64,000 bases of DNA. It comes from Candidatus Nitrosymbiomonas proteolyticus (GTDB lineage Bacteria > Armatimonadota > Fimbriimonadia > Fimbriimonadales > Fimbriimonadaceae). The position numbers and the translations under genes were made by a program. Location of the stretch: assembly GCA_017347465.1 (NCBI GenBank), contig AP021858.1, positions 1,054,001 to 1,118,000 of the forward strand, read 5' to 3'. Shown here in pieces: positions 16,684-25,629 of the stretch; positions within the stretch are counted from its first letter, which is position 1; each line of letters begins with the position of its first letter. Under the pieces are notes generated by a model. The model saw only the letters and a program-made list of their open reading frames with translations, was not told the DNA's origin and made no database searches.

Positions 16684-18477
16684 ATGCGCAAGACACGCGC
16701 AACCCGAACCAAAACTGAATCCAAGGCAACCTCCAAGCGGCACCTCAAGACGCCGAATGTAGAGATCATCGTCAACGTCTCCAACCGCGAGACGCGCATC
16801 GCCGTTCTCGAAGGCCGCGACCTCATGGAATACCGAGTCGAACGCGACGAGAGAGTCGTGGGCTCGATCTTCAAGGGCATTGTCCAGAACGTCCTCCCCG
16901 GCATGGACGCCGCCTTCGTGGACATCGGATTGGAGCGGAACGCCTTCCTTTATGTGGCCGACATCATCCCCGATGACTCGAACGACAATTCGCCCGCTTC
17001 ATTGAAGCGAAGCGAACTCCGCCGAAGAAAAATCGCCGACCTCCTTCGCCCCGGCCAGCAGCTCATGGTGCAGGTTACCAAGGGTCCGCGGGGGACGAAG
17101 GGCGCGAGGGTGACGACTCGAATCTCGCTCCCCGGCAGGTACGTCGTGGTGATGCCGGAAGCGGCTCATGTCGGGGTCAGCCGCAAGATCGAGGAGCGAG
17201 CCGAGCGCGAGCGTCTCCGTAAAATCGGCGAGAAGATCGTCCCGGACGGCTTTGGGCTCATCATGCGGACCGAGTGCGAGGGCCGCACTGAAGCCGAACT
17301 GAAGGCCGACATCGCTTTCTTGCGACAGGTGTGGGCGCAGACCCTCGAGAACGCAAAGCGGGTGCGAGCCCCCGCCTGTGTCCATCGGGACCAAACTCTG
17401 CTGTACCGAACGGTCCGCGATATGTTCGCCGAGGAGATCGACCGCATGGTGATCGACGATCCGGACGAATATGAGAAGGTCCACCTGATCGCCAAGCTGA
17501 TCGCTCCGAGCATGAAGGACAAGATTCAGCTTTACGACAAGGACGTCCCCGTGTTCGACGCGTACGGGATCGAGCGCGACCTGGAGCGGCTCTTGCAGCA
17601 TAAGGTCTGGCTGAAGTCCGGCGGGTATTTGGTGGTCGATGAAATGGAGGCCCTCACGGCGATCGACATCAACACGGGCAAGCAGATCGGCTCGACCTCG
17701 CTAAGCGACACGATTCTCAAGGCCAATCTGGAGGCTGCGGACGAAGTCTGCCGGCAATTGCGTCTTCGCGATATGGGCGGCATCATCGTGATCGACTTTA
17801 TCGACATGGAGGCCGAGTCCGACCGGAAGGTGCTGCTCGAACACTTCAAGGCAAGGTTGGCGCAAGACCGGGCGCGCACTCGCGTGGGCCGCGTGTCCTC
17901 GCTGGGGCTCGTCGAAATCACCCGCAAGCGAACCGGTGAATCGGTCACCGAAGCGATCACCGAAATCTGCCCGATGTGTTTGGGGCGTGGGCGCATCCAT
18001 TCGAAGGACACGGTATCGATTTGGATCGAACACGACATGTGGCGGAAGGTCAACGAGCCCGGAAACGCGTTCCTTGTCGAATGCCACCCCGCGGTCGTGG
18101 AGGCCCTCATCGGAATCGATGGCGAAAACGTCGAACTCCTCGAGCACGAGATGCAGCGCGGAATCTACATTCGGGCCAACTTCGACTTGGAATACGAGGA
18201 GTACGAGATCCGTTCAGGCGCGACCGACGAATTCGACCGGGAGTTCATGGGCTATCGCCGCGCGCAGGTGGTCGAGGCCAATGTGCGACGCTCCGCTTTC
18301 GAGCACACGGGGAAGATCGTCGGTTGGACCGACAACGGATATTACGTCGAGCTGTTGGACGGCGTCGGGCACGTGGGGCAGAGAGCCAAGGTGTGCTTGC
18401 AGGATATCCGGCGCTCTTACGCCGTGGCCGACGTGATTCTCCAGGGATCGCAGGCGCCGCCCCGATCGATTACGTAA
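16684..18477 (+). CDS. rng: ribonuclease G/E
   Basis: RNase G/E is a single-strand-specific endoribonuclease of rRNA maturation and mRNA decay. The 597-residue protein has a basic N-terminal tail (1-23), an S1 domain (about 57-145, GIVQNVLPGMDAAFVDIG), the 5'-sensor/RNase H-like region, catalytic Asp328 (TAIDINTGK) and Asp371 (VIDFIDM), and the zinc-link CPMC at 429-432. The last 50 residues (TGKIVGWTDNGYYVELLDGVGHVG) resemble a TRAM-like beta barrel, unusual at this place. It lacks the long scaffold tail of RNase E. TACACT at 16608-16613 could be its -10 box. Confidence 0.92.
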   Translation: MRKTRATRTKTESKATSKRHLKTPNVEIIVNVSNRETRIAVLEGRDLMEYRVERDERVVGSIFKGIVQNVLPGMDAAFVDIGLERNAFLYVADIIPDDSNDNSPASLKRSELRRRKIADLLRPGQQLMVQVTKGPRGTKGARVTTRISLPGRYVVVMPEAAHVGVSRKIEERAERERLRKIGEKIVPDGFGLIMRTECEGRTEAELKADIAFLRQVWAQTLENAKRVRAPACVHRDQTLLYRTVRDMFAEEIDRMVIDDPDEYEKVHLIAKLIAPSMKDKIQLYDKDVPVFDAYGIERDLERLLQHKVWLKSGGYLVVDEMEALTAIDINTGKQIGSTSLSDTILKANLEAADEVCRQLRLRDMGGIIVIDFIDMEAESDRKVLLEHFKARLAQDRARTRVGRVSSLGLVEITRKRTGESVTEAITEICPMCLGRGRIHSKDTVSIWIEHDMWRKVNEPGNAFLVECHPAVVEALIGIDGENVELLEHEMQRGIYIRANFDLEYEEYEIRSGATDEFDREFMGYRRAQVVEANVRRSAFEHTGKIVGWTDNGYYVELLDGVGHVGQRAKVCLQDIRRSYAVADVILQGSQAPPRSIT

Positions 18478-18529
18478 TTCCGTGGCCCCTGCCTGCGCGA
18501 GGAGCGCCAAGATCGAACCCCGGCGCGGC

Positions 18530-18562
18530 GATGGCCTCATTCGCCATCATGTACATTTTTTT
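18530..18562 (+). terminator. possible Rho-independent terminator of rng
   Basis: A 6-bp stem (18530-18535 with 18543-18548, 7-base loop) followed, after seven further bases, by a run of seven T (18556-18562). The gap between stem and T-run is longer than in a standard terminator, and an 8-bp palindrome ATGTACAT (18549-18556) occupies it, so this may instead be part of the downstream regulatory region. Confidence 0.3.
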
Positions 18563-18592
18563 CGAGTCCATTGCGCGAAGAAGAGCAATTTT

Positions 18593-18612
18593 ATGTAGTA
18601 TTATGTCTACAT
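18593..18612 (+). promoter_or_regulatory. palindromic operator over the -10 box of the DinB-family gene
   Basis: A perfect inverted repeat ATGTAG-N8-CTACAT at 18593-18612. The spacer contains TATTAT (18599-18604), a good -10 box ending six bases before the ATG at 18611, so the transcript is probably leaderless and the operator overlaps both the -10 box and the start codon. A related palindrome, ATGTACAT, lies 37 bases upstream. The region is AT-rich in an otherwise GC-rich sequence. PadR and BlaI-type repressors bind ATGT/ACAT- or TACA/TGTA-type dyads and often control DinB-fold genes, but no such regulator gene is nearby. Confidence 0.5.
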
Positions 18613-19078
18613 GAATCTTGATCCATTTCTTCAAGCTATCGACCACTCCCGGACTTGGTTTTTCAAACTTGTGGACGGGCTGACCCCGGAGCAATGGGAC
18701 GCCAAGCCCTATCCCAACGTCAAGTCTCCCCGCGAGACGCTGGAGCACCTCGTGATCTCCGACCGCGTTTGCCCGGTCTTGCTGCAGGGAACCGAGCCTG
18801 ACTACGAAGCGTACCGACCCGAGGGGGAGCTTTCACCCGAGCAGCTTCTCGACCTTCTCCGCTCGACGCACGCCGAACGGATGAGTTGGCTGAAGGAGTT
18901 CACCGAGGGGAAATCGCCCGACGACACGATACGGACCGTCTATTCCGGCGAGCAGTCGCTGGCGTCCCAGCTCATCGACATCGCGACGGAAGATTGGTAC
19001 CACATCGGCCAGGTGAGCCTTGTACGGCAGGGCGTCGACCCCGCATGGGATTACTACGCCGTGTTCTACTCGGGATAG
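18611..19078 (+). CDS. DinB-fold metal-dependent protein
   Basis: A 155-residue four-helix protein of the DinB/YfiT superfamily. It starts MNLDPFLQAIDHSRTWFFKLVDGLTPEQWDAKP, has the first His ligand in TLEHLVISDR (about 47) and a second His cluster DWYHIGQVSLVRQG near 130. Members bind a metal through about three His and include thiol transferases (bacillithiol S-transferase, mycothiol-dependent maleylpyruvate isomerase), but most, like this one, have no known substrate. It is monocistronic behind a palindromic promoter. Low-molecular-weight thiol conjugation in stress defence is a reasonable but untested guess. Confidence 0.78.
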   Translation: MNLDPFLQAIDHSRTWFFKLVDGLTPEQWDAKPYPNVKSPRETLEHLVISDRVCPVLLQGTEPDYEAYRPEGELSPEQLLDLLRSTHAERMSWLKEFTEGKSPDDTIRTVYSGEQSLASQLIDIATEDWYHIGQVSLVRQGVDPAWDYYAVFYSG

Positions 19079-19114
19079 GTTGCTCTTGGAGGGGGATTCT
19101 GGCAAAATGGCGGC

Positions 19115-19774
19115 ATGAGCGCGTTATTGCTAGCCATCGCCCTCCTGCAGGGCCCCAACACTCTCACGCCGGACGAGGCGCAGCAGGGGTGGAAGCTGCT
19201 GTTCGACGGGAAGACCACGCAAGGCTGGCACAACTTCAAATCGAAGACGGTCGGCCCCGGCTGGAAGGTCGAAGACGGCATCTTGACGAGCGTCGATCCC
19301 GCTACTGCGGGCGACATCGTGACCGACGAGAAGTTTCAGTGGTTCGAGCTGTCGCTTGAATTTCGCCTGACCAAGCGCGGTAACAGCGGTGTGCTATTTC
19401 GGGTCACCGACGAGGGCGAGCAGACTTGGCACTCCGGACCGGAGATTCAAATCTATGACCATGTAGGCGACGCGCCCGCGGAAAAGACGGGTTGGCTCTA
19501 CCAACTCTATTCGTCCCCGGTCGATGCCGCCCGTCCGCCCGGTGAATGGAACCACCTGAGACTCCTCGTGAGTCCCGAAAAATGCCGGACGCACCTGAAC
19601 GGGACCCTCTATTACGAGTTCGTGATCGACAGCCCAGAGTTCTGGAAGCGCGTCGCAGAGAGTAAGTTCGTGCGTTATCCGATGTTCGCAAAGTCCAAGG
19701 TCGGCAGCATCGGCATTCAGGGGGATCATGGCGTCGTTTCCTTCCGAAACGTCAAGATCAGGCCGATCCAGTGA
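19115..19774 (+). CDS. secreted DUF1080 protein (3-keto-disaccharide hydrolase family)
   Basis: A 219-residue protein with a short hydrophobic N-terminal segment (MSALLLAIALLQG) that could act as a signal peptide, followed by one DUF1080 concanavalin-like domain. Family features are GWKLLFDGKTTQGWHNF, the WKVEDGIL strand, TDEKFQWFELSLEFRLTKRGNSGVLFRV and GPEIQIYDH. DUF1080 proteins are abundant in Planctomycetes, Bacteroidetes and related groups and include enzymes that cleave 3-keto-glycosides. It is followed 34 bases later by a second, diverged DUF1080 gene. CAAAAT ends six bases before the ATG. Confidence 0.8.
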   Translation: MSALLLAIALLQGPNTLTPDEAQQGWKLLFDGKTTQGWHNFKSKTVGPGWKVEDGILTSVDPATAGDIVTDEKFQWFELSLEFRLTKRGNSGVLFRVTDEGEQTWHSGPEIQIYDHVGDAPAEKTGWLYQLYSSPVDAARPPGEWNHLRLLVSPEKCRTHLNGTLYYEFVIDSPEFWKRVAESKFVRYPMFAKSKVGSIGIQGDHGVVSFRNVKIRPIQ

Positions 19775-23008: not shown

Positions 23009-23914
23009 TCACTCGCCGTGCTCCTTCTTGCGGTGCTCCAGTTCCGCTTCGTGCGGTTCGTAGTGGATGCTGACTTGGCTCCCCGGAAACTCTTGCGATA
23101 GCTCCCGTTCGATCTCTTCGGCGAGGTCATGCGCCTCGATAAAGCTGAGGTCGTCGTCGAGCATCACGTGGAGCTCGATGAACCTGCGCGACCCTACCTT
23201 TCGGGCGCGGAGGTTATGGAACCCTCGCACTTCGGGGTGCAGGTTCAGGGCGGTTTCGAGCCGCCGAATCTCGTCCTCCGGGAGCGCTCCGTCCATCAGG
23301 GGATGAAGGCTTGCGTAGAGCTGCCGAAAGGCCAGCGACATGGCGACAAGCGCGAAGAGGATCGCCACTCCGGAGTCGATCGCCTCGATCCCGGTCATTC
23401 CGACGAGCAGGAGTCCCACCAGGACTCCGCCCGACATCAGGGCATCCGTTCTTAGGTGAAGGCTTTCGGCGGCGAGCGAGGGCGATTCGAACTCGCGGTT
23501 TCGTCGGGTGAGGTGCCCCGCGACGATCAGGTTGGAGATCACCGCATATCCCATTCCAAGAGCCGCCCAGTCCCACCGGATCGACTCCGGGGATAACAGT
23601 CTTCGATAGGCCGCCCAGACGATAAACACGCTGGTCAGGAGGATCAACAGCATTTGGAATGCGCTGGAGAGAATCTCGGCCTTGCCGTGCCCATAAGGGT
23701 GCTCCCGATCTGGGGGGAGCGCGGAGACTCGGAGAACCACTAGAGTCAGAGCCGACATCAGCACGTCGGCGGAAGATTGCAGCGCTTCGCCGAGTGCGCT
23801 CACGCTTCCGCTCACCCAAGCCGTGACGACCTTGACGCCCACTACGACGACCGTCGAAAGTAGCGCGACCGCCGCAAGTCTCTGCGAACCCGTTGTCGTG
23901 CGTGAGCGTACCAA
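23009..23914 (-). CDS. cation diffusion facilitator (CDF) metal transporter
   Basis: A 301-residue CDF exporter with six hydrophobic helices and a cytoplasmic C-terminal ferredoxin-like domain (from about residue 205, HPEVRGFHNLRARKVGSRRFIELHVMLD). The family signature DREHPYGHGKAEILSS is intact. The transmembrane metal site reads QxxxD in helix 2 (GEALQSSADVL) and HxxxD in helix 5 (LHLRTDAL), so one usual His/Asp ligand is Gln. The start is TTG; CAGAAT ends six bases before it, and no later start codon gives a full first helix. The gene diverges from recN. Confidence 0.85.
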   Translation of the reverse strand: MVRSRTTTGSQRLAAVALLSTVVVVGVKVVTAWVSGSVSALGEALQSSADVLMSALTLVVLRVSALPPDREHPYGHGKAEILSSAFQMLLILLTSVFIVWAAYRRLLSPESIRWDWAALGMGYAVISNLIVAGHLTRRNREFESPSLAAESLHLRTDALMSGGVLVGLLLVGMTGIEAIDSGVAILFALVAMSLAFRQLYASLHPLMDGALPEDEIRRLETALNLHPEVRGFHNLRARKVGSRRFIELHVMLDDDLSFIEAHDLAEEIERELSQEFPGSQVSIHYEPHEAELEHRKKEHGE

Positions 23915-23920
23915 CGGAGT

Positions 23921-23926
23921 ATTCTG
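23921..23926 (-). promoter_or_regulatory. putative -10 box (CAGAAT) of the CDF gene
   Basis: CAGAAT on the minus strand six bases before the TTG start, the spacing expected if transcription begins at the start codon. The overlapping plus-strand TATTCT (23920-23925) could serve recN, giving it a leader of about 30 bases. Confidence 0.35.
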
Positions 23927-23961
23927 GCACCTGCATCATCGGATCGTTCGAGCGAAAGAAG

Positions 23962-25629
23962 TTGATTGTCGAACTGCACGTCGAGAACATCGCGATCATC
24001 GAATCCGCGGGCCTGTCGCTGGGTCCGGGGTTTACGGTGCTGACCGGGGAAACGGGGGCGGGAAAGTCCCTGATCGCCGACGCGATCGAGTTGGCCTTGG
24101 GCGCGAGGGCCGATTCGGACATGGTGCGCGCGGGAGCAAGCCGTGCCCTTGTTGCGATGACCCTCGATCTGAGCGGCGCTCCGTCGGTCGCCTCCGCCCT
24201 CGAAAAGCTGGGCATCGTTGCCGAAGAGGGCTTGCTGTACCTTCAGCGGGAGGTGTTTGCGGAAGGCAAGTCGCAGGCCCGAATCAACGGCCGCCCCGCG
24301 CCCTTGAGCGTCATGCGCGAGGTCGGGAGGCAGTGGATCGACCTTCACGGGCAGCACGAGCACCAGGGCCTCATCCACCCGGAAAACCACGTTCGCTATC
24401 TCGACGCCTGGATCGGCGCCCCTGCCGAATTGACTCTTCGGAAGGTCGCCGAAAGTCACTCGAACTGCCAATCGCTGCGCATGAGGCTGGAGGGGATTCG
24501 GATGAATCGCCGGGAGCGCGAGCAGCAGTTGGACCTCCTTCGCTATCAGCGACAGGAGATCGAATCCGCCGCCCCGCGCACGGGTGAGTTCGAGGAGCTT
24601 CAAGCGCGCCTGCGAAAGCTGCAGAGCATAGCGAGCGTCAAGGAGAATTCCGAAGCGGCTTTGGCGAGGCTGATCGAGGCGGACGAGTCGGCCCACGACC
24701 AGCTTGCGAAGGCGCTCGCATTGGTCGAAACGATCGCCGACACCGACCCCCAACTCAAGGAGGCAGCCGAGATGCTGCAGTCGGCGATGGCATCCGTGCA
24801 AGAAGCGTCGAGGGCGATTCGAGGAGCGGCCGAAGAAGGAGACCTCGATCCCGCCGCGGTCGAACACGTGGCGGCTCGGCTCGACTTGCTGCGCCGATTG
24901 CGGTCGAAATACGGCGACGAAGAATCGGAGATTCTCGCGCACTTGGAGCGGGTTCGCGAGCGCCTGAGCCAGCTCGAATTCGACGAAGCCGACGAGCCAG
25001 CAATCGAGGCGGCCCTTGCGGAGTCTCTCGCTCAACTGCGGGGCCTGTGCGAGGAGTTGCGGGCGATCCGCCGGGATGGCGCGCGGGAGTTCGACGCTCG
25101 GGTCGAAGCGGAGCTACGAGAGTTGGCGATGGAGGCGGCGGTGTTTGCGACGGCGATCGAGCCGAGGGAGCCCGACGGTTCGGGCGCGGACGACGTGCAG
25201 TTCTTATTTTCGGCGAACAAGGGCGAGCCTGCGCGCCCCCTCAGCAAGATCGCGAGCGGCGGCGAGGTTTCGCGGGTCATGCTGGCGCTCAAATCGGTCT
25301 TGGCGGGCAAAGAGGGCGTACCGACCCTTGTCTTCGACGAAGTGGATTCAGGATTGGGGGGACAAGCGGCGAGCGTCGTGGGCCGCAAGTTGGCTCAACT
25401 CGCGGCCAACGCACAGGTGATCGCCATCAGCCACCTCGCTCAGATTGCGGCCCAAGCCACGTCGCATTTTCATATCCGCAAGGTCCTATCTGGCGGCCGC
25501 ATGGTGACCGAGGTTCGAGCCCTTTCGTCCGACGAGAGGATCGAAGAGGTCGCGCGGATGATCGCGGGTGAAGAGGTCGGCCAGGCGGCTCTCGCGCAGG
25601 CCAAGGAGCTTCTCAAGGGAAGGGTTTAG
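23962..25629 (+). CDS. recN: DNA repair protein RecN
   Basis: RecN is an SMC-like ATPase that tethers DNA ends in double-strand-break repair. The protein, 555 residues from this start, begins IVELHVENIAIIESAGLSL and has Walker A GETGAGKS (29-36), a long coiled-coil middle, the signature KIASGGEVSRVMLALK and Walker B TLVFDEVDSGLGG, ending in the D-loop/switch ISHLAQIAAQA. The start codon is TTG; an upstream TTG at 23893 would add 23 residues unlike the family. Length is normal for RecN. Confidence 0.93.
   Translation: MIVELHVENIAIIESAGLSLGPGFTVLTGETGAGKSLIADAIELALGARADSDMVRAGASRALVAMTLDLSGAPSVASALEKLGIVAEEGLLYLQREVFAEGKSQARINGRPAPLSVMREVGRQWIDLHGQHEHQGLIHPENHVRYLDAWIGAPAELTLRKVAESHSNCQSLRMRLEGIRMNRREREQQLDLLRYQRQEIESAAPRTGEFEELQARLRKLQSIASVKENSEAALARLIEADESAHDQLAKALALVETIADTDPQLKEAAEMLQSAMASVQEASRAIRGAAEEGDLDPAAVEHVAARLDLLRRLRSKYGDEESEILAHLERVRERLSQLEFDEADEPAIEAALAESLAQLRGLCEELRAIRRDGAREFDARVEAELRELAMEAAVFATAIEPREPDGSGADDVQFLFSANKGEPARPLSKIASGGEVSRVMLALKSVLAGKEGVPTLVFDEVDSGLGGQAASVVGRKLAQLAANAQVIAISHLAQIAAQATSHFHIRKVLSGGRMVTEVRALSSDERIEEVARMIAGEEVGQAALAQAKELLKGRV

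Follow-up and report, generated by a model that had tools for sequence, protein, structure and literature searches.

A probable LexA (SOS) operator over the promoter and start codon of a DinB/YfiT-type gene in Candidatus Nitrosymbiomonas proteolyticus

A small palindrome, ATGTAG-N8-CTACAT, covers the promoter of a DinB/YfiT-type gene in Candidatus Nitrosymbiomonas proteolyticus, and we propose that it is probably a LexA (SOS) operator through which a damage-inducible gene is kept repressed. It lies in a stretch of 64,000 nucleotides (positions 1054001-1118000 of the 2.81-Mb genome), hereafter the window, whose numbering is used for this locus. The sequence directly provides the site itself, a half-site common to lexA, Y-family polymerase, recA and some uvrA and uvrB promoters of the family, and an intact LexA in the same genome. 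From these we infer LexA as the binder, repression by its binding and induction by damage; LexA is favoured because of the repressor-type position of the site, the apparent autoregulation of lexA and the content of the regulon. According to the proposed mechanism, LexA, encoded elsewhere in the genome, would bind the GTAG-N8-CTAC dyad and, as this straddles the -10 box and the start codon, would block transcription of the DinB/YfiT-type gene; upon DNA damage, RecA filaments would promote self-cleavage of LexA and the gene would be turned on. The initial annotation had also seen an operator here, an interpretation that is partly supported, and had suggested a PadR- or BlaI-like regulator, for which LexA is the better supported candidate.

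The operator-like dyad, read directly from the sequence as ATGTAGTATTATGTCTACAT, occupies positions 18593-18612 (no strand assigned), over the -10 box and the start codon as first described. Its core is formed by GTAG (18595-18598) and CTAC (18607-18610), likewise unstranded, and reads GTAG-TATTATGT-CTAC, which places it in the N8 spacing class shared with half of the pol-IV-like promoters of the family. A complete half-site, GTAGAC, is found on the minus strand at 18605-18610 (GTCTAC on the plus strand), and is the same hexamer that precedes family lexA, imuB-like, pol-IV-like and recA genes. Between the arms sits a plus-strand -10-like box, TATTAT (18599-18604), 6 bases 5' of the ATG, and the right arm overlaps this start codon (18611-18613) of the DinB/YfiT-superfamily gene (18611-19078, plus strand), which corresponds to the start codon of a 54%-identical relative. 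The surroundings are the AT-richest spot of the window, since of the seven 60-mers poorest in GC (taken every 10 bases, with values as low as 30%) six begin at 18541-18591, in agreement with the AT-rich island noted earlier around the dyad and the upstream element ATGTACAT (18549-18556). The latter, which occurs once in the window (0.09 expected), had been taken as part of the repressor layout; it is unsupported as an operator because a genome of the same species (CP054189.1) reads CTGCACAT at this place, and as a second operator it was rejected on the same change of letters. In CP054189.1 both arms of the dyad are unchanged over 12 bases while the -10-like box is TATCAT; conservation of the arms within one species is weak evidence for an operator. 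Upstream, between the RNase E/G and DinB-like genes, a six-pair stem GATGGC...GCCATC is followed 8 bases on by seven T (18530-18562). Stem and T run are unchanged in the same-species genome; a terminator scan called none at the hairpin (18530-18548), which folds near its shuffles.

The promoter appears to be of the leaderless type. In a 464-kb sample of the genome, TANNNT stands 6 and 7 nt before the ATG at 16 and 14 of 657 candidate starts, compared with 5 and 5 of 1662 internal ATGs, so that this layout is above background, and the focal gene shows it as TATTAT-N6-ATG; no sigma-70 promoter with a -35 box was found in 18300-19200. The focal mRNA is thus predicted to be leaderless, with a predicted start at the ATG. 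Leaderless promoters with a -10 box adjoining the ORF are described for other phyla (PMC12340547, PMC3160421), and resemble the TANNNT layout at about 6-7 nt seen here; what differs from those promoters is that the same few bases here would also hold a candidate damage-type operator. This architecture bears on the reading of the palindrome as an RNA hairpin that would mask the start codon in messages extending into the gene from RNase E/G transcription upstream. A nine-pair stem (UUUAUGUAG/CUACAUGAA) with a folding energy of -8.2 kcal/mol does form there (z = -2.76; 2 of 200 shuffles as good), but it would be missing from any leaderless transcript starting at the ATG and the sequence of a same-genus relative differs at this place, which leaves the hairpin very improbable.

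The 155-aa product matches the Pfam family DinB_2 (PF12867; E=1.1e-14; 55.4 bits against a curated cut-off of 24.8), confirming the DinB fold that had been assigned to it. By eye, the protein (18611-19078) and 12 relatives carry a C-terminal motif E-D-x-x-H-x-G-Q. A third histidine is usual at this place in DinB proteins, and the metal site may therefore differ. DinB/YfiT proteins are presented in passages of PMC4338110 and PMC10693628 as putative metalloenzymes with a four-helix-bundle fold, and a protective or detoxifying role of the protein after damage can be envisaged. The gene is flanked by an RNase E/G gene on the 5' side and by two genes of the 3-keto-disaccharide-hydrolase type on the 3' side. 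A Pfam scan of the ten neighbouring ORFs revealed no helix-turn-helix family, which bears out the earlier remark that no regulator gene is nearby. One of these ORFs encodes a small zinc-ribbon protein, FmdB-like by eye, of a family sometimes labelled 'putative regulatory'.

Taken alone, the palindrome could be chance. Inverted repeats with 6-bp arms and a gap of 0-12 number 229 in the window, and such repeats lie within 64 bp upstream of 65 of the 446 predicted gene starts of the 464-kb sample; at three of the 446 starts a repeat extends as far as the start codon. Among 5000 shuffles of the focal 64-mer, 9.5% contained such a repeat and 0.8% one with a gap of exactly 8. The exact ATGTAG-N8-CTACAT is present as a single copy in the whole genome, and near copies with up to 2 mismatches number 41, against 78 for a reversed control. 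Because the sequence is unique when read exactly and does not outnumber the control when 2 mismatches are allowed, it is not a multi-copy box, and this possibility was ruled out for the 20-mer in its own genome. The initial annotation had pointed to further or chance copies of the palindrome as informative, and on this point the near copies show no surplus over the control. One reading of all this is that the palindrome is a by-product of an AT-rich leaderless promoter and no operator at all. The frequency of similar repeats before gene starts, the single exact copy with no surplus of near copies, and the little that 12 conserved bases say within a species are all compatible with it. What makes such a coincidence improbable is that GTAG-N8-CTAC is rare, occurring twice in the 464-kb sample with the focal site as the sole one near a gene start, and is yet the arrangement of many pol-IV-like promoters, and that the target is of the DinB type, a class also found behind two family sites (L087 and L160, below). 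An extended pattern drawn from the family sites (ATGTAGACNNNNGTCTACAT, up to 3 mismatches) had the focal site as its sole match in the window, and 3 of 100 shuffles contained any match. It is because the focal site matches a family-wide element of repair-gene promoters that it is raised above chance.

Across the 85 family genomes, the exact palindrome was found at 16 sites in 14 genomes, compared with 13 for a reversed control, a balance that counts against the LexA reading. At 13 of the 16 sites GT stands beside a CTACAT arm in either orientation, for which about 12% would be expected by chance. Outside the species, six of 14 sites precede Pfam-confirmed repair-type genes. Pfam assigned the genes behind exact sites to Y-family polymerases (L079, L083), UvrB (L086), a LigD 3'-phosphoesterase (L075), an AlkB-type 2OG-Fe(II) oxygenase (L089, with the AlkB models themselves below cut-off) and a DinB-family protein (L087). 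The other exact sites precede a radical SAM gene (L081) and a phage-type integrase (L077), lie near unnamed genes (L076, with no Pfam match, L078 and L088), lack a clear gene (L080) or fall inside ORFs (L082, L084). A gapped search of the family genomes with GTAGACA...GTCTAC also matched sites with no repair link; its matches include a uvrA promoter (L168), Y-family polymerases (L157, L166, L167), DinB_2-type genes of another genus (L160, and L161 below cut-off) and a radical SAM gene (L163). The radical SAM genes of genus g17 (L081, L163, L164 and L165) bear pairs of half-sites; for L163 the nearest NCBIfam models are PA0069/Rv2578c, below cut-off, and the promoters of L163 and L164 end in TATTATGTCTACATG, as does that of the focal gene. 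In two genomes of one genus (G076 and G004), GTAGAC-N4-GTCTAC precedes a conserved protein of 118-123 aa (L158 and L159), which has no Pfam match in L158 and is a possible new regulon member.

Counted in either orientation within 150 bp upstream, with hexamers of the same composition as controls, the half-site GTAGAC/GTCTAC was present at 29 of 30 lexA loci, that of the focal genome included (control mean 2.15, maximum 18), at 35 of 37 imuB-like polymerase genes (3.3, 14), at 22 of 30 pol-IV-like genes (1.92, 11) and at 12 of 30 recA genes (1.75, 9), the top control hexamers partly overlapping GTAGAC (TAGACG) or the -35 box (GTCAAG). Up to 200 bp upstream of lexA, GTAGAC was found at 28 of 29 usable loci and GTAGAC-N18-GTCTAC at 15 of 29, as opposed to 1 of 29 for a reversed control pair. 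This longer arrangement was rejected as the sole true box, as it stands at 15 of 29 lexA loci and is missing at polymerase genes.

The distance between the two halves depends on the class of gene. GTAG-N8-CTAC is the commonest arrangement at pol-IV-like genes (15 of 30) and occurs at 3 of 30 recA and 3 of 37 imuB-like genes; GTAG-N11-CTAT is found at 21 of 37 imuB-like and 6 of 30 lexA genes, GTAG-N11-CTAC at 3 of 30 lexA genes and GTAG-N22-CTAC at 15 of 30. At some pol-IV-like and imuB-like genes the dyad is partly coding sequence, which may inflate these counts; at loci with a different reading frame the signal is still visible by eye. Control words GATG...CATC gave no spacing peak. With peaks at 8, 11 and 22 according to gene class, the sites share no single fixed dyad spacing, and this was counted against the LexA reading. 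At imuB-like, pol-IV-like and focal genes the half-site overlaps or follows the -10 box and sits on the start codon. The sites fall within core promoters or over start codons, as suits a repressor.

LexA is encoded in 79 of the 85 family genomes, in 76 of them above the cut-off, including that of Candidatus N. proteolyticus. The 209-aa protein of the latter scores 206.5 bits with TIGR00498 (cut-off 110.95), comprises LexA_DNA_bind and Peptidase_S24 domains, and retains the AAGV (Ala-Gly), GDSM (Ser) and ATVKR (Lys) motifs; all of the solved relatives found for it are LexA, UmuD or phage repressors. A stretch of LexA, SLRGVTVHLDAL, does not vary across 29 of 30 loci, and the remaining one (L096) is truncated. 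On alignment of this stretch with PDB 7b5g, which we take to be E. coli LexA, SLRGVTV stands in place of SPNAAEE, and this replacement fits a different DNA specificity of the LexA studied here. Two genomes with no LexA above the cut-off nonetheless carry a site, before an imuB-like gene in G020 (L237) and before uvrB in G086 (L086), and count against the LexA reading; both are drafts, 92% and 89% complete.

Within the genome of Candidatus N. proteolyticus, a gapped search of the promoter type returned two matches only: the lexA half-site (genome positions 1355773-1355802) and a pair of half-sites, GTAGACA...TGTCTAC, at a DUF3276 (Pur-alpha-like) gene (L150, 1183479-1183515). The DUF3276 gene has a leaderless-type promoter, TATAGT-N6-ATG, and adjoins an ORF on the other strand that is FtsZ-like by eye; the same arrangement is seen in G084. 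A half-site is also located upstream of the imuB-like gene (L232) and just upstream of the pol-IV-like gene, in the latter case with no clear partner arm. A lone half-site proves little, because 17 of 445 gene starts of this genome carry the hexamer, which is no excess given that hexamers of the same composition average 14.2; this null result counts against the LexA reading. So does the lack of GTAGAC/GTCTAC in the recA region and upstream of the RecN-like gene of the window (SMC_N/AAA_23; 23893-25629).

The orthologues of the DinB-like gene gave a mixed answer to the question, raised by the initial annotation, of whether the palindrome is kept upstream of them. The exact palindrome is missing from the same-genus orthologue that is 54% identical, but the sequence there (CAGTAGACTAATGTCG) contains GTAGAC-TAAT-GTC, a full half-site and, at N4, the inner GTC of its partner. 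A 52%-identical relative from another family has neither palindrome nor half-site, which counts against the LexA reading. GTAGAC/GTCTAC stands within 150 bp in seven of the 13 closest loci, the focal gene and its same-species counterpart included, although in two of the seven the word may instead belong to a TAGACT -10 box. Among 35 DinB-type loci, nine had one of four tested words and two had one of four control words.

It is unlikely that the same DNA-damage regulon is read by another protein, with GTAGAC recognised by a WYL activator (PafBC, SiwR) or a DdrO-type repressor. The half-site of lexA, about 9 bases before its -10 box, resembles the PafBC motif-to-TANNNT layout; variable spacing is also unusual for LexA. 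Passages of PMC10693628 describe M. smegmatis SiwR as a WYL activator that induces two DinB-superfamily genes via a 19-bp imperfect palindrome, and those of PMC4338110 describe D. radiodurans DR0053, which is DinB-like, as damage-induced but not through LexA. Like the focal gene, these targets belong to the DinB superfamily, and theirs are induced by DNA damage; unlike what is proposed here, dr0053 is not LexA-controlled and the SiwR targets are switched on by an activator, as far as these passages go. Against a binder of this kind stand the repressor position of the half-site at imuB-like, pol-IV-like and focal genes, and the wide occurrence of LexA with the half-site in its own promoter. As for a PadR- or BlaI-type operator, the resemblance to ATGT...ACAT-type sites is visual only: a search of the genome with PF03965 (BlaI) found nothing at E<=0.001, the one PadR gene found has no such site upstream (L044, by eye) and the family sites mark repair genes, so that this option retains next to no credibility.

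LexA thus remains the preferred binder, and the proposed system resembles known LexA/SOS systems in having a canonical self-cleaving LexA in the same genome and an inverted repeat, placed as for a repressor, upstream of lexA and of genes for error-prone polymerases and excision repair. The Gram-positive LexA box is GAAC-N4-GTTC. To our knowledge, LexA boxes keep to one spacing per group, whereas the family spacing varies (8, 11 and 22) and several sites lie on leaderless-type start codons. The half-site GTAGAC/GTCTAC is not among the LexA motifs quoted in the consulted passages of PMC8565304, which include the E. coli box CTGT-N8-ACAG, and among the matches listed in literature searches on LexA-binding motifs and on LexA/SOS in Armatimonadota, Fimbriimonas and Chthonomonas no title concerned a GTAGAC box. 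A close precedent is B. subtilis dinB, which passages of PMC4338110 describe as SOS-regulated and provided with a LexA site. Like the focal gene as predicted here, it combines membership of the DinB/YfiT superfamily with control by a LexA-type site; the box sequence and the phylum differ.

A more specific proposal, which we put forward tentatively and with more doubt than confidence, is that a single LexA, invariant in its recognition stretch, might read an undescribed GTAGAC box at spacings specific to the class of gene, and so accept several dimer geometries, often on leaderless start codons: N8 at pol-IV-like genes and the focal DinB-like gene, N11 at imuB-like genes and a number of lexA genes, and N22 at further lexA genes. 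What stands out most in these results is this variable spacing, and the LexA reading does not explain the values of 8, 11 and 22. If correct, the LexA assignment would provide an SOS box for the poorly studied lineage Armatimonadota, would add the GTAGAC box to the LexA motifs, of which the consulted passages of PMC8565304 count 17 distinct ones, and would tie a DinB/YfiT-type gene to the DNA-damage response, while the variable spacing would make the geometry of LexA operators testable.
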